DNA from: Alcanivorax jadensis T9 | Lineage (GTDB): Bacteria > Pseudomonadota > Gammaproteobacteria > Pseudomonadales > Alcanivoracaceae | DNA length: 64,000 nt | Direction: 5' to 3' | NCBI RefSeq assembly: GCF_000756655.1 | Contig: NZ_ARXU01000014.1 | Coordinates: 1-64,000 of the forward strand | In this document: one piece after another, positions 3,214-35,499 of the stretch | Position numbering within the stretch: the first letter of the stretch is position 1 | Layout: each line of letters starts with the position of its first letter | Program-made: the position numbers and the translations under genes | The notes under the pieces: model-generated | The model's input: the letters and a program-made list of their open reading frames with translations, nothing else | The model's database searches: none | What the model was told of the DNA's origin: nothing

Positions 3214-5376
3214 ATGGATGACGTAACTTCCCTTATTGATGGCTTGAACCCGGCCCAGCGCGACGCGGTGGCTGCCGATGACCGACATTTACTGGTGCTG
3301 GCTGGTGCCGGCTCGGGCAAGACCCGGGTGCTGGTGCACCGTATTGCCTGGCAGATCGCCACCGAGCAGGCCTCGCCGTTCGGTATTCTAGCGGTGACCT
3401 TTACCAACAAGGCCGCTGCCGAAATGCGCGGGCGCATCGAGCAGTTGCTGGACATGTCCGCCGACGGCATGTGGGTGGGCACCTTCCACGGCATTGCCCA
3501 TCGCCTGCTGCGCGCCCACTGGCAGGAAGCGGGCCTGCCCCAGGGCTTCCAGATCATCGATGCGGATGATCAGATCCGGCTGATCAAACGGGTGATCAAG
3601 GAGCTGGGGCTGGACGAGCAGCGCTGGCCGGCCCGTCAGGCCACCTGGTTTATCAATGGCCAGAAGGATGAGGGCCTGCGTGCCAAGCACATGGACGCCA
3701 ATGGCGATCTGTTCGTGCAGACCATGCAGAAGATCTACTTCGGCTACGAAGAAGCCTGCGAGCGCAGCGGCCTGGTGGACTTCAACGAAATGCTGCTGCG
3801 GGTGCTGGAGCTGTTCCGCGACAACGATGGCCTGCGTGGCCATTATCAGCGTCGCTTCCGGCACATTCTGGTGGACGAGTTTCAGGATACCAACAGCATC
3901 CAGTATGCCTGGCTGCGGTTGCTGGCCAACGACGATAATGCCGTCACCATCGTCGGCGATGATGACCAGTCCATCTACGGCTGGCGCGGCGCCAAGATCG
4001 AGAATATCCACAAGTTCAGCCGCGATTTCCCGGATACCCGCACCATTCGCCTGGAGCAGAACTACCGCTCCACCGGCACCATCCTGAAAGCGGCCAACGC
4101 CGTGATTGGCAACAATGCCGACCGGCTTGGCAAGGAACTGTGGACCGAGGGCAGCGACGGTGATCCGATTCGCCTCTATGCCGGGTTCAATGAAGTGGAC
4201 GAAGCCCGCTTTATTGCCGGGCGGGTGGAAAAGCTGTTTCAGGAAGGCACCGCGCGGCGGGAAATGGCGGTGCTGTACCGCTCCAACGCCCAGTCCCGGG
4301 TGCTGGAAGAAGCTTTTTTGCAGGCCGGTATTCCCTACCGTATTTACGGTGGTCAGCGCTTCTTCGAGCGGGCGGAAATCAAGAACGCCCTGGCCTACCT
4401 GCGCCTGCTCAGCCATCGCGATGCGGATGCCGCCTTCGAACGGGTGGTGAACACCCCCACCCGGGGCATCGGCAACAAGACTCTGGAAAGCCTGCGCGAG
4501 CTGGCACGTCAGCGTGGCGTGTCCCTGTGGGCTGCGGCTCAGGCGCTGATCAGTGAGCAGTTACTTACCGCCCGGGCCACCAATGCCCTGGCGGTGTTTC
4601 TGAACCTGGTGGCGCAGCTGGAGCAGCAATGCGATGGCTTGTCGCTGGCGGAAACCACCGAACATGTAATCGAAGCCAGTGGCCTGGTGGATTTCCATGG
4701 CAAGGAAAAAGGCGAAAAGGGCCAGCAACGGCTGGAAAACCTGCGCGAACTGGTCTCCGCCACTCGGGAATTCGGTGACGAGGATGAAGACTCCGAACTG
4801 GATAGCCTGACTGCCTTTCTCGACCACGCCGCCCTGGAATCCGGCGAGGGCCAGGCCGACGCCCATGAGGACGCGGTGCAGATGATGACCCTGCATTCCG
4901 CCAAGGGCCTGGAATTTCCGGCGGTATTCATCTGTGGCATGGAGGAAGGTCTGTTCCCCCACCAGATGTCCAGCCAGGAGCCGGGCCGCATGGCCGAAGA
5001 GCGGCGCCTCTGCTACGTGGGCCTGACTCGCGCCATGCGCGAGTTGTACCTGACCCATGCGGAAAGCCGTCGCCTCTACGGTAATGAAAACCATAACCCG
5101 CCCAGTCGTTTCCTGCGCGAAATTCCTGCCGAGTTTCTGGAAGAAATCCGCGCCCGGGCCGGCTTCAGCCGGCCGGTGGGCGGCGCGTCGCGGCCGATTC
5201 GGGAAACCGAGTCCAATGGCATCAACCTGGGCGCGCGGGTATTGCACCCGAAATTCGGCGAAGGCACCGTATTGCACTTCGAAGGCCAGGGCCCCAACGC
5301 CCGGCTGCAGATCAATTTTGACGGCGCCGGCACCAAGTGGCTGGTCAGCCAGTACGCCCGGCTGGAAGTGATATAA
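3214..5376 (+). CDS. uvrD: DNA helicase II UvrD
   Basis: This superfamily 1 3'-5' helicase removes UvrC and the excised strand in nucleotide excision repair and unwinds nicked DNA in mismatch repair. The ATG at 3214 gives 720 residues, the length of E. coli UvrD. Walker A is GAGSGKTR (about 31-38). VDEFQDTN and GDDDQSIYGWRG mark motifs II and III, and VGLTRAMREL lies in motif VI. The C-terminal Tudor-like segment ends in a conserved basic/hydrophobic stretch. The reading frame stays open 84 codons upstream, but that segment does not look like helicase and the family length supports the internal ATG. Rep is the main alternative, but the length and C-terminus favour UvrD. Confidence 0.94.
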   Translation: MDDVTSLIDGLNPAQRDAVAADDRHLLVLAGAGSGKTRVLVHRIAWQIATEQASPFGILAVTFTNKAAAEMRGRIEQLLDMSADGMWVGTFHGIAHRLLRAHWQEAGLPQGFQIIDADDQIRLIKRVIKELGLDEQRWPARQATWFINGQKDEGLRAKHMDANGDLFVQTMQKIYFGYEEACERSGLVDFNEMLLRVLELFRDNDGLRGHYQRRFRHILVDEFQDTNSIQYAWLRLLANDDNAVTIVGDDDQSIYGWRGAKIENIHKFSRDFPDTRTIRLEQNYRSTGTILKAANAVIGNNADRLGKELWTEGSDGDPIRLYAGFNEVDEARFIAGRVEKLFQEGTARREMAVLYRSNAQSRVLEEAFLQAGIPYRIYGGQRFFERAEIKNALAYLRLLSHRDADAAFERVVNTPTRGIGNKTLESLRELARQRGVSLWAAAQALISEQLLTARATNALAVFLNLVAQLEQQCDGLSLAETTEHVIEASGLVDFHGKEKGEKGQQRLENLRELVSATREFGDEDEDSELDSLTAFLDHAALESGEGQADAHEDAVQMMTLHSAKGLEFPAVFICGMEEGLFPHQMSSQEPGRMAEERRLCYVGLTRAMRELYLTHAESRRLYGNENHNPPSRFLREIPAEFLEEIRARAGFSRPVGGASRPIRETESNGINLGARVLHPKFGEGTVLHFEGQGPNARLQINFDGAGTKWLVSQYARLEVI

Positions 5377-26567: not shown

Positions 26568-28049
26568 GTGGATGATCTGCGGGATTTCAGCGTGACCAGC
26601 ATGCGCGCGCTGCATCAATTATCGTTACAGGATCGGACCGACCTGCCCGCCCTTTTTCAGGCTTACATTAAACGGGGCTGCGAGCTGCTGGGGCTTTCCA
26701 TCGGCATTGTCAGTGAGATTCGTGATAGCCGTTATACCGTGTCGGCAGTGGAAGGTGGCGGGGCTGCGATCCGCAGGGGAGAGGTGTTCGCACTGGGTGA
26801 GACCTACTGCGAATCGGTGGTCAGCAAACGCGGTACGGTTGCCCTGCATCACGTGGGTGCGCTGGAGAAAATGCGCAGCCACCCGGTTTATCTGGGAATG
26901 CAGCTGGAATCCTACATCGCCGCGCCGTTGCGCGATGGCGACGAGATTGTCGGCACACTCAATTTCAGTGATACCCAAATTCGCCCTGAGCCCTTTACCA
27001 TGGAGGAGCTGGAATTTGTCGAGCTGATGGCCGAGAGCCTCAGCCATGCCCTGGCACAGGATCAGCTGCGTTGCCAACAGGGCCAGAACTATCCTGCCCG
27101 GGAAGCCAGTGAAGCCCTGTTCGAGGCGGCCTTCCAGCATGCAGCCATTCCCATGGCCATTGTGGCTCCGAATGGCCGATGGTTGCGGGTCAACGATGCC
27201 GTCTGTGACCTGCTGGGTTACTCCAGCGTTGAACTGCTGGGCATGGACTTCCAGAGCATTACCCACCCGGAAGACCTGGACAAGGATCTCGCCCACGTGC
27301 AATCCCTGCTGTGCGGGGACAAGAACCAGTACTGGATGCAGAAGCGGTATTTTCACCGAAACGGTGAGCTGGTGTGGGCACTGCTGGCGGTGTCCATCGT
27401 GCGTAATGCCGATGGCTCTCCACGCTGTTTCCTGTCTCAGATCAAGGATGTCTCTGCTCAGCGTGAGGCCGAAGCGGCCCTGCAGGCAAACCGTGATGAG
27501 CTGGAACAGCTGAACGTGGAGCTGGCCGAGCTGGCGCGCACCGATGGCCTGACCGGCCTCAGCAATCGTGCGGTGATGATGGAATTGCTGCGACAGGCTC
27601 ACGGTAGCTGCACCCGCAGTGGCGAACCCCTGGCCTGCCTGTTCATGGAAGTGGACGGGTTCAGGGGGATCAACGAGGCCTGTGGTCACAGCGAGGGGGA
27701 TGCCCTGTTGTCCACCCTGGCGGTCTGCCTGCGCGACGTAGTAGGAGGCAAGGGCACGGTGGGCCGCTACAGCGCCGATGTCTTCATGGCCCTGTTGCCC
27801 GAGCACGGCATTAACCAGGCGTTGCAGCTGGCTGAGGGCTGCCGGCAAGCGGTGGCCAGTTTGAGCGAGCTGCCCCGGCCGGTCACTCTCAGTATTGGCG
27901 TAGCAGCCCTGATGCCGGAAGAGGGAGCGAGTCTGCCGGATACCGATGACCTGTTGCGTACTGCCGACCAGGCTCTTTACGCGGCCCGGGAAACCGGAGG
28001 TGATGGGGTGCGGGCGGTACGGGTTGAGCGCGCAGGGTTGACGAACTGA
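26568..28049 (+). CDS. GAF-PAS protein with degenerate GGDEF domain
   Basis: A soluble 493-residue sensor-like protein has a GAF domain (about 20-165), a PAS domain (about 185-310) and a GGDEF-fold domain (about 325-485). The cyclase active-site loop reads SADVF (402-406) where active enzymes have GG(D/E)EF, and the motif TDGLTGLSNR is retained. Diguanylate cyclase activity is therefore unlikely; it may bind nucleotide or act through protein contacts. The start is GTG at 26568; MRALHQL further in is an alternative. No signal peptide or membrane segment is seen. Confidence 0.85.
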   Translation: MDDLRDFSVTSMRALHQLSLQDRTDLPALFQAYIKRGCELLGLSIGIVSEIRDSRYTVSAVEGGGAAIRRGEVFALGETYCESVVSKRGTVALHHVGALEKMRSHPVYLGMQLESYIAAPLRDGDEIVGTLNFSDTQIRPEPFTMEELEFVELMAESLSHALAQDQLRCQQGQNYPAREASEALFEAAFQHAAIPMAIVAPNGRWLRVNDAVCDLLGYSSVELLGMDFQSITHPEDLDKDLAHVQSLLCGDKNQYWMQKRYFHRNGELVWALLAVSIVRNADGSPRCFLSQIKDVSAQREAEAALQANRDELEQLNVELAELARTDGLTGLSNRAVMMELLRQAHGSCTRSGEPLACLFMEVDGFRGINEACGHSEGDALLSTLAVCLRDVVGGKGTVGRYSADVFMALLPEHGINQALQLAEGCRQAVASLSELPRPVTLSIGVAALMPEEGASLPDTDDLLRTADQALYAARETGGDGVRAVRVERAGLTN

Positions 28050-28128: not shown

Positions 28129-28174
28129 CCCCCCTGTTCAGGGGGGTCACGTTCCACAAATAGCCAAGTAGCAT
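28129..28174 (+). promoter_or_regulatory. Palindromic site A and -10 upstream of lipoprotein gene
   Basis: CCCCCCTGTTCAGGGGGG (28129-28146) is an 8-bp perfect inverted repeat around TT. A -10-like TAGCAT lies at 28169-28174, 22 bases after the G-run. The same word and spacing occur at 31828 and 32884. The start codon at 28440 would leave a leader of about 260 bases. Otherwise the 390-base gap 28050-28439 shows no convincing gene. Confidence 0.6.
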
Positions 28175-28439
28175 GTGACAGACTTCTCCTCCAGGGAAGT
28201 GGTCATGGCAATGGAGCTGTTGGTCTCAGACTTGGCCGGCAGGGATGCCTATTAAGCTATCTGGCGGCTCCTTTCCCTTTCCTCTCCCCTTGGATGAAGG
28301 CCGTTCATTTTCTTCTGGCTGAAATGCGGATACGCCGTGTATGACCCGTTCCAAAAACCGGCAACTGCGGCGCGGATTAAATCGCCAGTGGGAAGCGTTG
28401 GGCGACTAAAAAATCCAATTACATCCATGGGGTAAACAC

Positions 28440-29576
28440 ATGAAAATGATGTCAGGGAACAAGACGATTTCGGCGGTGGCGTTGGCCACATTGGTATCCG
28501 GTTGTGCGACCACTGTCAGTAAGGCGCCCAGCTACGATGCCAATGGCAGTGCGGCCAGCCAGGCAGACAGCTTCATTGCAGCAGAAAACGAAAAGTACAT
28601 GTCGGGTGTCGACAAGGTCGGTGTTTTGTCCTGCAATGTCATGTTCGGGGTGAACAGTTCTGCATCGGCTTCTACCAGCGGTGGTTTCCGGTCTGATGCC
28701 ACCCGCGCTACAGGCACGACCCGGCGCTCCGATGTGACGGTTTCAGTTACCTATGCTGCCAAAGGTGTGGATGAAGCGGAAATGCAGCGCATTGCCAACG
28801 AAGCCTGTGATAACGCCGAGAAGCAACTGTCAAACGCGGGTTTTCAGGTAGTGCCACACGCCACCATCAAGGCAAATCCTCACTACCAGGCAATGCATGC
28901 AGAAGGCCGTGAAAGCCCCTTTGAATACAAAGGCAATGCCGGTACCCGGTATCTGGTATTGGGGCGAGAAGGAGAGAGCATCTCTGATCCGCGTTACATC
29001 GGCACCGCCAGCGGTTTGGGTCAGGCTTTTAAGGCAGCCGGAGGCAGTTCCGCGCAGCAGCACGAAGGTCGCCTCATGAAGGATCTGAGTCTGACCGGCG
29101 TCAACGTTAATATCCTGATTGACTTTGCACAGCTGGAATCAGACGGGCACAGCAGCTTTGGCGGTTTTGCCAGCAAGGATTCCGCAAAGGTAGATGCCAC
29201 CATTCAGTTGGCCGCGAGCGGTGATGTGCGCTTCCAGCCGCTCTCGAAGCAAAAATGCTGGAGCCGTTTCGGCAAGGAAGAGTGCATGATCAAGCCCAAT
29301 CACATGCCGGTTTTCAGCACCACCAACGCCTTGGCTACGGCCAACACCTTCTACAGCAGCATTGAGGATGTCACGACCACAAGTGACAAGCTGACTTCCG
29401 GATTCACTAAAAGCCTGGGTTTTTTGAGTGCCATGAGCGGTACCTCCAGTTCCACGGCCAGGGATATTACCCGTTATCAGGTTAACCTGATTCCTGCGTC
29501 CTATGATGCAGAGAGCAAGGAGCTGGCAAGTGGATTGCTTGAGATGGCGGCTAGCAAGGCAGCGTCATCCCGCTAA
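28440..29576 (+). CDS. Putative lipoprotein, member of site-A regulon
   Basis: I do not recognise this 378-residue protein. The N-terminus has a signal peptide ending in the lipobox VSGC (Cys near 23), so it should be lipid-anchored in the envelope. The next ~25 residues are low complexity. The body has a Ser-rich stretch SSASASTSGGF, a helix with EMQRIANEACDNAEKQL, and a C-terminal part with two Cys (KCWSRFGKEECM). No catalytic motif is evident. It has a promoter-like palindrome shared with the nearby two-component genes and the second lipoprotein. A strong terminator follows. Confidence 0.75.
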   Translation: MKMMSGNKTISAVALATLVSGCATTVSKAPSYDANGSAASQADSFIAAENEKYMSGVDKVGVLSCNVMFGVNSSASASTSGGFRSDATRATGTTRRSDVTVSVTYAAKGVDEAEMQRIANEACDNAEKQLSNAGFQVVPHATIKANPHYQAMHAEGRESPFEYKGNAGTRYLVLGREGESISDPRYIGTASGLGQAFKAAGGSSAQQHEGRLMKDLSLTGVNVNILIDFAQLESDGHSSFGGFASKDSAKVDATIQLAASGDVRFQPLSKQKCWSRFGKEECMIKPNHMPVFSTTNALATANTFYSSIEDVTTTSDKLTSGFTKSLGFLSAMSGTSSSTARDITRYQVNLIPASYDAESKELASGLLEMAASKAASSR

Positions 29577-29587
29577 TCAGGGCAGAG

Positions 29588-29614
29588 AACGGGCCGTATT
29601 TCGGCCCGTTTTTT
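29588..29614 (+). terminator. Terminator after the 378-aa lipoprotein gene
   Basis: A 9-bp stem AACGGGCCG/CGGCCCGTT with loop TATTT is followed by TTTT, a good intrinsic terminator on the plus strand. Confidence 0.85.
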
Positions 29615-29675
29615 CGTTTATCGTCAGAAAAAAATGCGAAGAACGTCCCGCACTGAAACGGCATGTTAGCGAGAG

Positions 29676-29707
29676 AAAAAATGGCGGGCACTTCCCCGCC
29701 ATTTTTT
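29676..29707. terminator. Terminator for the sensor kinase gene
   Basis: AAAAAATGGCGGG and CCCGCCATTTTTT flank a 6-base loop. The A/T runs on both sides make it bidirectional; it lies directly after the kinase stop codon. Confidence 0.85.
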
Positions 29708-29709
29708 AT

Positions 29710-31797
29710 TTATCTGTTAACAGGAACGGATAGCAAAACCTGCCAGTGTTGATCCGCAATACCAAATTCGAAGCCGCCACCGATCTTGCTCGCGCGGAAC
29801 TGCATGATATTCAGTCCTCGTTGTGGCCCGGGCGTGGCTGACGGGTCGAGTCCACTGTTGGCGATGATGATATTCAGTTTGTCAGTATCGCCATGCAGGG
29901 TGACAGACAGGAGGGGCGTCTCGGAATGCTTGAGAGCATTGCTCACCGCTTCACGAATAATGCGGGTGGTTTCGCTGAATTGCATCGCGTGTAGCGTGGC
30001 GGGGATGATGTTTTCGTTCCACTGCAGGGTAACGTCGTGATCCCTGCAGCGCCGGGAGGTTTCTTCGCGCCATTGCGAGGCTGCGGCATCCAGTGACAGG
30101 GCGTGCCCTTCCATGGCCTTGAGCAGATCACGCAGATCAGCGATGGCTTCGCGAACCAGCGGCTTGCTATCAGCAGGAGACTTATGCAGCAGGTGCAGGA
30201 GTTTGGCGCCGAGATCATCATGCATGTCCCTGCGAATGCGATTGCGTTCCTCGCTGGCACCCTCTTCGCGAGCTGTACGTGTCTGATTGACCAGCGTGTG
30301 TAGAGCCAATACCAGTTTGCTGGTTTCCACGTCGTGCCGACTGAAAACCCGTTGCCCGTCGTGGGGGTGAAGTAATTCGAAATGGTGGGGTTCTTTGGAA
30401 TCAGGCACCAGCAAACGGTTGCCGTTGTCCTCAATGCTAACGTTTGCCACAGGCCCCTCTGCGCGCTTTAGGGACAAGGGTGAGAATACCGCTTGCAGAG
30501 CGGCTGCAATGCCGGACTGTTCCGGGGCGTTCTGTTGCTCCTGCAACATGGCAGGCAACGCCTGGGACAGCCAACTGTCCAGACCCTGCCGCTGATTGCG
30601 GATTAGTTTGCCCCAAAGGTACTGCCGAACCGGGAAATACAGCCAGCCAATCAGTGCCACGGAGAGGGCAAGCGTGGCAGGACCGGAGAGGGTGAGCAGG
30701 GTGGCGAGCAGCAGGTCGGTGAGCATGATGACCAGGCCGCCCAGTAGCCAGGACCAGAGAGAAAACCACCAGGGTTCCAGGTTGAAAAGACGATGGCGCA
30801 CAACGCCCATGGCCATGCCCAGGTACATCAGCAGGAAGGTGGTAAACAGCAGTCCCTGGGACGCCGGGGTTGGCATGGTCAGCATGGCAGGAACAATCAT
30901 GCCGCCTGCAAAGAAAACGGTACCCAGAACAATGGACAGCACTGTCCAGCGCAGGGCGATGCGATCCTGCCGATGCCCGCGTGTTTTCCAGGCCTGCCAG
31001 AATGCCCCTCCCAGGCCGAGCAGGAAAATTCCCATCACCCATGAATGGAAGCCGGCGGCGGGGGTGGTCACCAGTTGAGCCTGATCGACCACAATGGCAA
31101 CGGCAAATAACAGATAGAACATGCCGCTAAACCAGATCGAGGGTGCCTGGCGCGGGTAGTTCCACAGAAAAGCGCCCAGTGAAGCGGAGAACAGCAAGGC
31201 ACCGAAATGGTTGATACCAGAGAGCAGTGCAAAAAGCTGTCCGGGCATGAACAGTTCACGGGTGCTGTAGATGGCGGCGGCAGAGGAGAACAGTACGTAG
31301 CTGAGCCCGGTGAGGGCAAAGGAGTTAATGGCAATGTCGCTGCGTGCAGGCACCCACACCAGCAAACAGATCACCATGCCGGACAGACCGCAGATCAACT
31401 GTAGCCAGAACAGTCCGGGCAACGACACCAGAGAACGTGACGATGATGAAATCGCCACTGCATTGCCGTTTTCATCCTGCAGCGACAAGCTTCCTGATGT
31501 CAGGGCACTTTCCAGGAACTGGTGGGCACGGAAGAAATCATTCATTGCCGCATAACCGGGCAGCACATCCGGTTCTTCCAGCAGCAATATCGGGTCGGCG
31601 GGAATGCGCTGCCGGTCGTTACTGAACTGTGTCACCGAAATTTCTCGGCCATCCTCAAGGGTGGCAACAATGGTATCTTTATCGGTCCGAAAGTGAATTT
31701 CACTGACAGGCAGGGACAGTGCGACAATGATGGTCATCAGCCCGTAAGCGACCACCAGCAGAAAGCCCATCGCAATCCGGGTCTTGAGTGAAAACAT
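29710..31797 (-). CDS. Membrane sensor histidine kinase, NarL-partner (HPK7/HisKA_3) type
   Basis: This inner-membrane kinase of 695 residues has one N-terminal membrane helix, an external domain of about 100 residues, and then about eight hydrophobic segments (135-410), an arrangement suggesting a multi-pass sensor. The cytoplasmic part has the dimerisation/H-box ERNRIRRDMHDDLG with the phospho-acceptor His near 526, the N-box REAVSNALKHS near 615 and a GLNIMQFRA G-box. This type pairs with LuxR/NarL-class regulators, and one is encoded divergently at 31993. The ATG at 31797 has AAGGGA upstream; an upstream in-frame start would run through site B. The signal is unknown. Confidence 0.87.
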   Translation of the reverse strand: MFSLKTRIAMGFLLVVAYGLMTIIVALSLPVSEIHFRTDKDTIVATLEDGREISVTQFSNDRQRIPADPILLLEEPDVLPGYAAMNDFFRAHQFLESALTSGSLSLQDENGNAVAISSSSRSLVSLPGLFWLQLICGLSGMVICLLVWVPARSDIAINSFALTGLSYVLFSSAAAIYSTRELFMPGQLFALLSGINHFGALLFSASLGAFLWNYPRQAPSIWFSGMFYLLFAVAIVVDQAQLVTTPAAGFHSWVMGIFLLGLGGAFWQAWKTRGHRQDRIALRWTVLSIVLGTVFFAGGMIVPAMLTMPTPASQGLLFTTFLLMYLGMAMGVVRHRLFNLEPWWFSLWSWLLGGLVIMLTDLLLATLLTLSGPATLALSVALIGWLYFPVRQYLWGKLIRNQRQGLDSWLSQALPAMLQEQQNAPEQSGIAAALQAVFSPLSLKRAEGPVANVSIEDNGNRLLVPDSKEPHHFELLHPHDGQRVFSRHDVETSKLVLALHTLVNQTRTAREEGASEERNRIRRDMHDDLGAKLLHLLHKSPADSKPLVREAIADLRDLLKAMEGHALSLDAAASQWREETSRRCRDHDVTLQWNENIIPATLHAMQFSETTRIIREAVSNALKHSETPLLSVTLHGDTDKLNIIIANSGLDPSATPGPQRGLNIMQFRASKIGGGFEFGIADQHWQVLLSVPVNR

Positions 31798-31827
31798 GAA
31801 AATCCCTTGTCTGATGTGGCGCCCTCG

Positions 31828-31871
31828 CCCCCTTGTTTTGGGGGTTGCTCCCATGGGCTGGTACTTATTAT
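31828..31871 (+). promoter_or_regulatory. Palindromic site B in the kinase/regulator divergent region
   Basis: CCCCCTTGTTTTGGGGG (31828-31844) is followed by TATTAT (31866-31871), 21 bases after the G-run, directed at the response regulator gene. It is also 31 bases upstream of the kinase start codon. The shared geometry with sites A and C suggests binding by the regulator encoded here (autoregulation), which is an inference. Confidence 0.6.
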
Positions 31872-31992
31872 AACTGTCTTCAATGAATGACTAATCAGTG
31901 TCATCCACTTTTCCTGATTGAGCTATATTGCCTGCCTGAAATTATAATCTGGTTCTAGTAGGACGCCCAGTCTTATCACATGGAGTGTAAGC

Positions 31993-32637
31993 ATGCTGTC
32001 AGTCAAACAGGTGTTGATCGTGGAAGACCTCCCTGATGTGGCTGACTGGTTGCACCAGCAGGTAGTGATCATGCTTGATCCAGATCAGGTGCACCGCGCC
32101 AGCAATCTTGCCGATGCTTCCCGCTGCATGGAGCAGCACCGATATGATCTGGCACTGATCGACCTTGGATTGCCAGATGGCAGTGGCATGTCCCTGGTGC
32201 GTCCATTCAAGAAAGCCAACCCCGCCGCGCAATGCATCATTACCACCATCTTTGATGATGCCGAGCATCTGTTCGGCTCATTGCGAGCCGGTGCTGATGG
32301 CTACCTGCTCAAGGACGACACCGAAGAGGCGTTTGCTGGCCACCTCTCCGGTATCCTGCAAGGGCGGCCACCGCTGTCCGCCTCCATTGCCCGACGTTTG
32401 CTCGAGCACTTCCATCCGCTTGCCGGTGAGAAGGATGTGGCCCTGACGCGTCGGGAGCAGGACATGCTGACACTGATTGCCAAAGGGTTAAGCGTGAAGC
32501 ATGCGGCAGAAAAACTGGGTATTTCCCATTACACCGCAGCAGGATACATGAAGGATGTGTATGCCAAGCTGCAGGTGAATACCCGGGCCGAGGCGACACT
32601 CAAAGCCATTCACATGGGATTGGTTAATCCGTCCTGA
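31993..32637 (+). CDS. NarL/LuxR-type response regulator
   Basis: This two-domain regulator has 214 residues. The receiver domain has the acidic pair VEDLPD, the phosphorylation Asp57 in ALIDLGLPDGSG, and the Thr/Lys positions ITTIFDD and LLKDD. The C-terminal LuxR HTH runs from LTRREQDMLTLIAKGLS to the recognition helix GISHYTAAGYMKD. The divergent histidine kinase is its likely partner. Site B and a -10 sequence lie upstream, giving a leader of about 115 bases. Candidate targets are its own gene and the lipoprotein genes at 28440 and 32968. Confidence 0.93.
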   Translation: MLSVKQVLIVEDLPDVADWLHQQVVIMLDPDQVHRASNLADASRCMEQHRYDLALIDLGLPDGSGMSLVRPFKKANPAAQCIITTIFDDAEHLFGSLRAGADGYLLKDDTEEAFAGHLSGILQGRPPLSASIARRLLEHFHPLAGEKDVALTRREQDMLTLIAKGLSVKHAAEKLGISHYTAAGYMKDVYAKLQVNTRAEATLKAIHMGLVNPS

Positions 32638-32883
32638 CGGCCTGTTCAGTGGGGCGATTTCCAGCGTTGTGCAGCCAGCGGCAGACGTTTGCCGGTGAGC
32701 AAGCCGGACACGAGGCCAGCAAAAAATAGTCGTGCCGATACCCTCCCAGCCGCGGAAAACCAGAATACGACAGCGCCGACAGGTGCGTTTCGTCAGTCAC
32801 CTTGTCGTTATTCCGGTCGGTAGCGAGCCTGCCCCTTTCTGAACATGCCTCCTGATTAAATAGTGATGTGCTTATTTATGGTA

Positions 32884-32929
32884 CCCCCATGTTTGGGGGG
32901 TGCTGCTGTTGCCCGTTCAATCCTATGCT
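32884..32929 (+). promoter_or_regulatory. Palindromic site C and -10 upstream of large lipoprotein gene
   Basis: CCCCCATGTTTGGGGGG (32884-32900) is followed by TATGCT (32924-32929), 23 bases after the G-run. The gene starts at 32968. The rest of the 330-base gap after the response regulator (32638-32883) shows no gene or clear structure. Confidence 0.6.
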
Positions 32930-32967: not shown

Positions 32968-35499
32968 ATGCAGCCAATCAAAGGGAAGTTGATTTTTGGT
33001 GCTGGACTGTTGGGCGTCATCCTGACGATAGCAGGTTGTGGCGGGGGAGGAAGCAGCGGTAACGGCAGCGCAGCAAACGGTGGTGGTCCCGCCGCACCAT
33101 CGTCATCCAGTCTTGCCGGTACTGCGGCAGTAGGCGCTGCCATCCAGACCGGTACCGTAACCGCAGAATGTGCCGATGGCAGCGGGTTCACCTCCACCGT
33201 GACTACCAATGCCGATGGCACCTGGAGTGGCAATGTAGGGAATGCTTCACTCCCCTGTGTGCTCACGGTGACCGGAGGCACCCCCCCGGTTACCTTGCGC
33301 AGCTATGCCAGCCAGCCGGGGACGATCAACATTACCCCGATCACCGACATGGTGCTGGCGCTCACCACCGGCCTGGCGGACGGTAGCTGGATTGCCACAC
33401 CGGCCAACTGGCCAGATGCCAGCACCATTGCCAGCAAGAAAACCGAGCTGCTCGCCGCCATGACCAATGCTGGCTTTACCTTGCCTGGGGGAGATCCGTT
33501 CAGCACAGCCCTGGTGATTGGTGATGCCTGGGATCAGGTGTTGGATGCGATCCAGGAAGCCATTGATGATGACCCGTCCATCGCCGATTACAGCGCCCTG
33601 CTGAATCTGGTCAAGGACGGCAACCTGAACCAGTTCCCTGACGCGCCGGAAGATGAAGAACCGGTTGACCCTGAATTGCCAGCGAACCTGGATGTGCTGA
33701 CCGATTATGCCGGTACCTATACGGTCATTGGCAGCGGCGAGGGAGACCCCGGTTACTGCGCAAGCTGTGGCACCGCCACGCGCGATCATGAGCGTGGTAC
33801 CGTCACAATTTCTCCGCAGGGCGATATTGATTTCGATACCGGCATTAGCTTTACCGTTGACGATATTGTTGAAATTTACGATCGCAAGACCGTTGACGCG
33901 GATCGTCGGGTGGCTGTGAACTATGGTCAGTCAGATAGCGATGAGCGGGTTCGTCTATATCTCAATACCGATCTGGAAGTCATGGAAATCATTCATGACG
34001 ACGGTGCCGGTGCAACCACTCGCGCCTTAATTCAGGAAGAGAGCACTGATCCGGAGCCGGAGCCTGGCGCTGAGTTGCTCGACATGCGCAATGGGGTTGC
34101 CATTGTGCATGACGGTAAGGTGTGGGCGATGGAACAACCTTTTATTGAATCGTTCATGGCGACCACGGCCAAGCGTCAGATCCGGGCGCATAACTATGAC
34201 AGTGATTTCAACACCATCGATACCAAGCCGTTTAATGGTGATGATCTGATATGGGCCCAGGTGAACGTGGCACATGGGATGCTAGGCACCCAGTTGTGTG
34301 GTACCAGCACGGGAGTATCGTTGCTGACGGTTGATTATGCTTCTGCACCGCCCGTTCAGAAAACCTGGACTGCGACCGAATGCGAACTGGATGTGGATTA
34401 TCACTTCAGCAACGGTGCCACGGAAGGGCACATCATCAGTGCCACGCTGGTCAACAACAAGGATGACGACCAGGTCACCCTGAGCGGTGGCCAGTTCCGT
34501 ATCTTTATTCATACCGGCACGGAAGGCGAAGCACCGGCCCTGACAGACGAGGTCTTTTGGGATATCACTATTGATAATGGCACCCGTGAGATGCGTTCCG
34601 GACATTTTCTGGGTGGCCGTCCGTTGCTGGATGGTTCGCATCCCGATCACGCGCTAAAGCTTAGAATTCAGGCTGGCAGCAGCATCAGCCCCAGCGCAGG
34701 TGAGTACAGTTGCGATGATGGCGACACAGAAGTGACCCTGAAGATGGGCTGGATAACTATTAGCGATCCGCTGTTCAAATTCCAGAGTGCCAACGGCGGT
34801 AACTGCACCGTAACCATCGAGCAGAACGCCGGGCGAAAGTATCTGGGTTCTTATACGGCTACCCTGTTGGGCCCCAGTAACGGTGGTGGTGCGGCATTTG
34901 GTTCCGGGTTGGCTACCGGCGATATTGAACTGCCAGCTGCCGAGCGGACCCTGGTGGTGCACGGCAAGTTCCGCAACTTCACCACCCAGACTTTCCATGC
35001 TGGCAACAATGGTGATGATGGTGTGCTGGGCAGTGAAGCCGAGGGGGTGAGCATGACCATCGACGATGGTAGCACCCATTTTGTGGCCGGAGAGCGGTTC
35101 CTGCTGGCATCGGAGGTGTCGTCCAATGGCAGCAATGGCTACTTCTTCCGCCAGTTTGATGATCAGGGATTCCCGAACAATCAGATGCGGATGGTGTGGT
35201 CCAACATTCCCATGCAGGTCGGAAGCTTTACCTGCAACACGGAAGTCGGCGGTCTGAAACCGACCATGACGATCTCTACCCCGGCGGATATTCCATACGG
35301 TGCCACTTATACCCAGTCAGGCATTCAAAACCTGTCTGAAGGGGCGTCTTGCACCATCAATGTCACCAGTGTCAGCGATGGTCTGGTAGAAGGGACTTAT
35401 ATTGCCACGCTGGTAGCGAGGAATATGGGGCCTGTCCTGCCGGACAATGATAATTCGATTTCGTTGTCAGGTGAGTTCCGCTATCCGTATACCCCCTGA
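32968..35499 (+). CDS. Large lipoprotein with three repeated Cys modules
   Basis: I cannot name this 843-residue protein. The ATG at 32968 gives a signal peptide with lipobox IAGC followed by a Gly/Ser/Pro-rich linker, so it is probably outer-membrane anchored. The first part (to about 250) resembles carboxypeptidase-regulatory or beta-sandwich surface proteins. From about residue 430 three similar modules follow. Each has an early Cys (TQLCGTS, GEYSCDD, GSFTCNT), a second Cys (ATECELD, GGNCTVT, GASCTIN), then a G..TATLV strand and a SGxFR strand. Paired Cys suggest one disulfide per module. A ligand-binding or surface role is a guess. Site C lies upstream. Confidence 0.78.
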   Translation: MQPIKGKLIFGAGLLGVILTIAGCGGGGSSGNGSAANGGGPAAPSSSSLAGTAAVGAAIQTGTVTAECADGSGFTSTVTTNADGTWSGNVGNASLPCVLTVTGGTPPVTLRSYASQPGTINITPITDMVLALTTGLADGSWIATPANWPDASTIASKKTELLAAMTNAGFTLPGGDPFSTALVIGDAWDQVLDAIQEAIDDDPSIADYSALLNLVKDGNLNQFPDAPEDEEPVDPELPANLDVLTDYAGTYTVIGSGEGDPGYCASCGTATRDHERGTVTISPQGDIDFDTGISFTVDDIVEIYDRKTVDADRRVAVNYGQSDSDERVRLYLNTDLEVMEIIHDDGAGATTRALIQEESTDPEPEPGAELLDMRNGVAIVHDGKVWAMEQPFIESFMATTAKRQIRAHNYDSDFNTIDTKPFNGDDLIWAQVNVAHGMLGTQLCGTSTGVSLLTVDYASAPPVQKTWTATECELDVDYHFSNGATEGHIISATLVNNKDDDQVTLSGGQFRIFIHTGTEGEAPALTDEVFWDITIDNGTREMRSGHFLGGRPLLDGSHPDHALKLRIQAGSSISPSAGEYSCDDGDTEVTLKMGWITISDPLFKFQSANGGNCTVTIEQNAGRKYLGSYTATLLGPSNGGGAAFGSGLATGDIELPAAERTLVVHGKFRNFTTQTFHAGNNGDDGVLGSEAEGVSMTIDDGSTHFVAGERFLLASEVSSNGSNGYFFRQFDDQGFPNNQMRMVWSNIPMQVGSFTCNTEVGGLKPTMTISTPADIPYGATYTQSGIQNLSEGASCTINVTSVSDGLVEGTYIATLVARNMGPVLPDNDNSISLSGEFRYPYTP

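Follow-up and report, generated by a model that had tools for sequence, protein, structure and literature searches.

In Escherichia coli, NarL activates transcription from single or tandem 7-2-7 inverted heptamer sites which abut the -35 position, with a single site at yeaR and a site centred at -44.5 at ogt (PMC7419079). The ACTU motif of CrbR/ErdR is an imperfect inverted repeat of a LuxR-type response regulator, and is required for activation (PMC5715377); the Staphylococcus response regulator NreC has been reported to bind a GC-rich palindrome (PMC8139620).

The locus described here lies in a 64,000-nucleotide stretch (the window) of the genome of Alcanivorax jadensis T9, a marine, oil-degrading bacterium. 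It shares with the NarL system of the E. coli ogt and yeaR promoters a NarL-type regulator and an inverted repeat of similar length that abuts the -35 position. It is unlike that system in its half-site, which is a C-run/G-run where that of NarL is TACYYMT, and in its kinase, which is a multi-TM protein scoring far under the NarX/NarQ cut-offs. The NarL operator TACYYMT-N2-AKRRGTA gave no match at the three sites A-C with up to 3 mismatches; in the window as a whole, it gave 26 such matches against 21 expected. The CrbR/ErdR motif differs from A-C in being of the type TACTACCATCGTCGAAT, and that system concerns acetate genes and has an SLC5-type kinase (PMC5715377). NreC is concerned with nitrate respiration genes and is likened to our system by the description of its palindrome (PMC8139620). 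The open-licence papers that we searched hold no account of this system in Alcanivorax, nor of a C-run/G-run operator of the NarL family. An earlier note on this DNA knew of no described NarL-family operator of this form: this stands for the half-site, which appears to be new in the literature searched, but not for the arrangement at about -44, which E. coli NarL has as well (PMC7419079), and the mechanism is of a known kind.

We propose, with a probability of about 0.83, that A-C are operators of the response regulator (RR) encoded at 31993, which would activate lpA, lpB and its own gene by a class II mechanism, under the control of the divergently encoded kinase.

Results

Genes of the locus

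Matches to PF00072 (3.2e-16) and PF00196 (1.7e-12) place the RR among the NarL/FixJ-type regulators; scoring 95.5 bits against the NCBIfam NarL cut-off of 250, it is not classed as a NarL orthologue. A Pfam search of lpA returned no family match and one of lpB nothing credible, even at an E-value of 5. Both proteins begin with a lipoprotein signal sequence. In a sequence search of the PDB, the only noteworthy match was that of lpB residues 43-195 to 9i0d/9i0e, a 'lipoprotein cytochrome c' domain (E 6e-6 to 3.5e-5). The AlphaFold models of lpA and lpB are of very low confidence (mean pLDDT 30 and 32).

Table 1. Sites, promoters and genes of the locus (window coordinates; G numbers denote genomes compared).
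Feature	Position	Strand	Remarks
Operator A	28129..28146	+	CCCCCCTGTTCAGGGGGG; inferred centre about -43.5; retained in G002, G006, G007, G014, G016
-10 hexamer TAGCAT, promoter A	28169..28174	+	22 nt past G-run; TAGSATGTGAC conserved, spacer variable
Short leader ORF	28205..28255	+	MAMELLVSDLAGRDAY; conserved block in 5 genomes; similar to promoter and start of lpB2 in G004, G005, G010, G011
lpA	28440..29576	+	378-aa lipoprotein; lipobox LVSGC; present in 13/57 genomes
Terminator-like hairpin downstream of lpA	29584..29614	+	
Sensor histidine kinase	29710..31797	-	TM at the N terminus, an extracytoplasmic part and several more TMs; HisKA_3/HATPase region scores weakly in Pfam
Operator B	31828..31844	+	CCCCCTTGTTTTGGGGG; kinase/RR intergenic gap; inferred centre about -42
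-10 hexamer TATTAT, RR promoter	31866..31871	+	21 nt past G-run
Response regulator (RR), NarL-type	31993..32637	+	Response_reg and GerE
Operator C	32884..32900	+	CCCCCATGTTTGGGGGG; inferred centre about -44; retained in ten relatives
-10 hexamer TATGCT, promoter C	32924..32929	+	23 nt past G-run; TANNNT at equal offset in 8/8 non-redundant lpB promoters
lpB	32968..35499	+	843-aa lipoprotein; lipobox and GGGG linker; N-terminal ~200 aa common to paralogues

Three palindromes with C-run and G-run arms

The three palindromes were confirmed by sequence where the earlier note had placed them, but their supposedly identical geometry is near-identical only: they share the C-run/G-run form, with lengths of 18, 17 and 17 nt for A, B and C, and a spacer of 6 or 7 between the two runs. 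The TGTT core said to be shared is present in A-C, but in relatives it is merely the most frequent core, TATT, TTTT and CATT being found as well. Our strict search pattern (CCCCC-N0-2-TGTT-N0-3-GGGGG, with the same pattern reversed as its control) misses some of the relatives' sites because of these core variants. The TT of the spacer is almost invariant and lies mostly on the strand of the target gene, with an exception that is inverted in G021/G027 (L107/L108). This near-invariant, oriented TT counts against our model, as it is not demanded by a purely symmetric dimer site. The sites do precede the genes named for them, but site A is not close to lpA, with some 290 bp between the two.

Genome-wide (3.63 Mb), the strict form proved to be rare: it occurs at 4 places, three of which are A-C, and the reversed control at none; 100 dinucleotide shuffles of the window gave 0 matches. 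We discounted the fourth site, found at C1:11683 ahead of an mlaA-like gene, since TATAAT stands about 12 nt past its G-run and the RR-less genome G001 retains it. The palindrome before the mlaA-like gene (L098 8684, L099 8191) is common to G000 and G001, and its -10 spacing is a different one.

In some operators the C-tract arm is expanded, to about 17 C (L085, about 4100-4120), 13 (L080, upstream of lpA) or 9 (L087, 10290). Slippage of the C-tract is possible, as the near-identical genomes G005 and G010 differ at expanded arms.

Conservation and co-occurrence with the response regulator

The earlier note had counted conservation at the same three loci in other Alcanivorax as potential support, and in 20-kb regions around RR orthologues or homologues from 19 relatives we found just this: across the genus the palindrome is retained ahead of both lpA and lpB and, in most orthologues, between the RR and kinase genes, while much of the sequence between palindrome and -10, and of the flanks, varies. 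Extra lpB paralogues, in G004, G005, G010, G011, G030 and G019, are each preceded by a further palindrome, and an additional lipoprotein gene between RR and lpB in G011 has a palindrome of its own. In two Alloalcanivorax genomes, G018 (gelatiniphagus) and G034 (A. marinus), lpA and lpB lie off the contig of the RR, and their palindromes and the usual -10 spacing are kept. G021 and G027, from another genus, have three such genes, namely a homologue sharing 43-44% identity with lpA, an lpB-like gene and another lipoprotein gene. All are off the RR contig or distant from the RR and all have palindromes; that of the third gene is inverted, with TATATT or TATAGT 22 nt past the run. Model R1 placed a palindrome 23 nt before TAGCAT, upstream of the unlinked lpB-like gene of G021/G027 (a 1.7-kaa open frame), although this site did not belong to its training set. 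That unlinked lipoprotein genes retain both palindrome and spacing points to a regulator which acts in trans. All R1 matches with E <= 0.01 fall in RR-bearing genomes, most of them belonging to the training set or to close orthologues of its members. Among 57 genomes, the strict palindrome is found in 14 of the 17 with an RR orthologue versus 3 of the 40 without (Fisher p 5e-8, phylogeny ignored), and since the lipoprotein genes frequently lie next to that of the RR, part of this co-occurrence could be joint inheritance.

The sites could also be true operators of some other DNA-binding protein, which co-regulates the RR and the lipoprotein genes; the RR has been assigned to them from sequence, and joint presence could reflect inheritance as one cluster. 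We regard this as unlikely, because the presence of the palindrome tracks the RR across genomes, because the RR/HK gap has a palindrome even in Catenovulum and Halopseudomonas, where the neighbouring genes differ, because the stray palindromes of RR-less genomes sit in unrelated contexts and because a sister RR clade with an altered recognition helix shows a different repeat.

As to the RR itself being the binding protein, the Catenovulum orthologue (62% identity) has CCCCCCTATTTTGGGGG 77 bp ahead of its start, and Halopseudomonas carries a palindrome between the RR and kinase genes and ahead of a lipoprotein gene adjoining the kinase. In Marinomonas, CCCCCTTAAACTAGGGGG precedes the lipoprotein gene 3′ of the RR, with TACCCT 21 nt further; hhalign relates this lipoprotein, like the additional one in G011, distantly to lpA (probability 91-92%). 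It counts against the model that no such palindrome was seen in the stretch examined upstream of the Paraperlucidibaca RR. The RR orthologues that have the palindrome share the recognition helix HTAAGYxKxxYxKL, the sister proteins of G026 and G040 have NTAASHIKSIYRKL, and the RR upstream regions of G026 and the related G035 carry a different repeat, of GGTTAGCCCGTTTGGGGC type. In these few cases recognition helix and operator would seem to co-vary. In the sister RR clade (helix AASHIK), the GGTTAGCCCGTTTGGGGC-type repeat is that of the RR upstream regions L095 and L096. In another family of the same order, three lipoprotein-like genes stand beside a 43%-identical RR/kinase pair (L097, 2978-9172); a C5/G5 palindrome was not evident in the RR upstream stretch examined there.

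Promoter geometry

The distances from G-run to -10 that the earlier note had given for the three promoters were read back unchanged from the sequence (Table 1). Of 35 non-redundant promoters, 24 have a TANNNT hexamer 20-24 nt past the G-run, versus a mean of 2.6 and a maximum of 8 in shuffles; a point against the model is that the -10 is less constant at the RR promoter. With +1 placed 12 bases downstream of the first -10 base, the inferred site centres run from -41 to -45.5 across 50 promoters. A promoter scan found no consensus sigma-70 promoter at A-C, as would be expected if these promoters depend on an activator. In several relatives, TTGATC directly after the G-run gives the RR promoter, but not the lipoprotein promoters, a fair -35, which is consistent with some basal expression of the RR. 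On these inferred positions, the sites have the centre near -41 to -45 and the poor -35 of class II promoters. The site centres, the TANNNT spacing and the precedent of E. coli NarL make class II activation the likeliest mechanism, and the claim of the earlier note that the regulator so activates its targets, its own gene included, agrees with this geometry and with the same operator standing at RR gene and targets alike, although binding and activation are predictions.

NarL-family proteins are also able to repress. The RR might thus bind A-C as a repressor or, in the RR/HK gap, chiefly control the kinase gene, whose start codon is 30 bp from site B. This too seems improbable: centres at -42 to -45.5 leave both -35 and -10 unoccupied, and promoters without a consensus -35 would offer a repressor little to act on.

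A further alternative is that the palindromes act as RNA or DNA hairpins, that is as terminators, attenuators or repeats. C5/G5 palindromes are able to fold, and three other C5...G5 places in the genome (C13, C9, C2) resemble typical intrinsic terminators with a T-run. A-C, however, have no T-run and were not picked up by the terminator scan; located 5′ of the inferred transcript start, they would not be in the mRNA; they gave no match in an Rfam search; and the palindrome is not a repeat dispersed through the genome. We therefore consider hairpin function very improbable.

Strict matches away from RR regions number about a dozen (about 0.2 per genome), near the reversed-pattern control, at roughly background level; several of these strays are within coding sequence, and two (G021, G027) are probable regulon members. 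C5...G5 with any 5-8-base spacer occurs at about 12 places in the genome, and the probability that three such relaxed matches fall inside one 4.8-kb span is about 7e-7. The scattered single strict matches might suggest chance similarity, but the clustering, spacing and above all the conservation of A-C exclude it in practice.

The leader of lpA

In G004, G005 and G010, an lpB-type gene lies directly 5′ of lpA, with the palindrome ahead of the lpB-type gene. At site A of the window, the promoter is present together with the start GGTCATG and a short ORF that is conserved, and the body of the lpB-type gene is missing. The leader ORF at 28205-28255 is probably a remnant of a lost lpB-type gene, and such a loss would account for the length (~290 bp) of the lpA leader.

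Discussion

Returning to activation by the RR, we suggest that the divergently encoded membrane kinase (29710-31797) phosphorylates the RR, a step which we infer, and that an RR dimer would then bind the inverted repeat of C-run and G-run, whose centre is at about -43, immediately 5′ of the -35 position. The bound RR would recruit RNA polymerase to promoters in which the -10 is recognisable but the -35 weak or absent; the predicted targets in the A. jadensis T9 genome are lpA, lpB and the gene of the RR itself, and the kinase gene might also be controlled from site B. A like operator at the regulator's own gene and at its targets, in A-C and in orthologues, is what characterises an autoregulated two-component regulon.

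An uncharacterised two-component system would thereby gain an operator and a target set, and two unannotated lipoprotein families would come under one control. The operator could serve as a sequence tag for locating targets, unlinked ones too, in other genomes, and the regulon is directly testable in culturable Alcanivorax strains. The two RR clades, with differing recognition helices and apparently differing operators, offer a natural pair for studies of NarL-family specificity.

More speculatively, and we think this rather doubtful, there may be a surface-lipoprotein module, spread across gammaproteobacteria of several orders, whose sets of lipoprotein genes vary but are controlled by a single NarL-type RR through its C-run/G-run operator, and in which C-tract slippage (up to about 17 C in one relative) retunes single promoters of lipoprotein genes.

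Two observations concern the neighbourhood and relatives of the locus. The gene for a GAF-PAS-GGDEF protein (26568-28049), just 5′ of site A, stays beside the cluster in several relatives, at 53-99% identity. On plasmids of Sulfitobacter, Rhizobium and others, proteins distantly related to the kinase (26-31% identity) occur commonly (plasmid records H1-H10).
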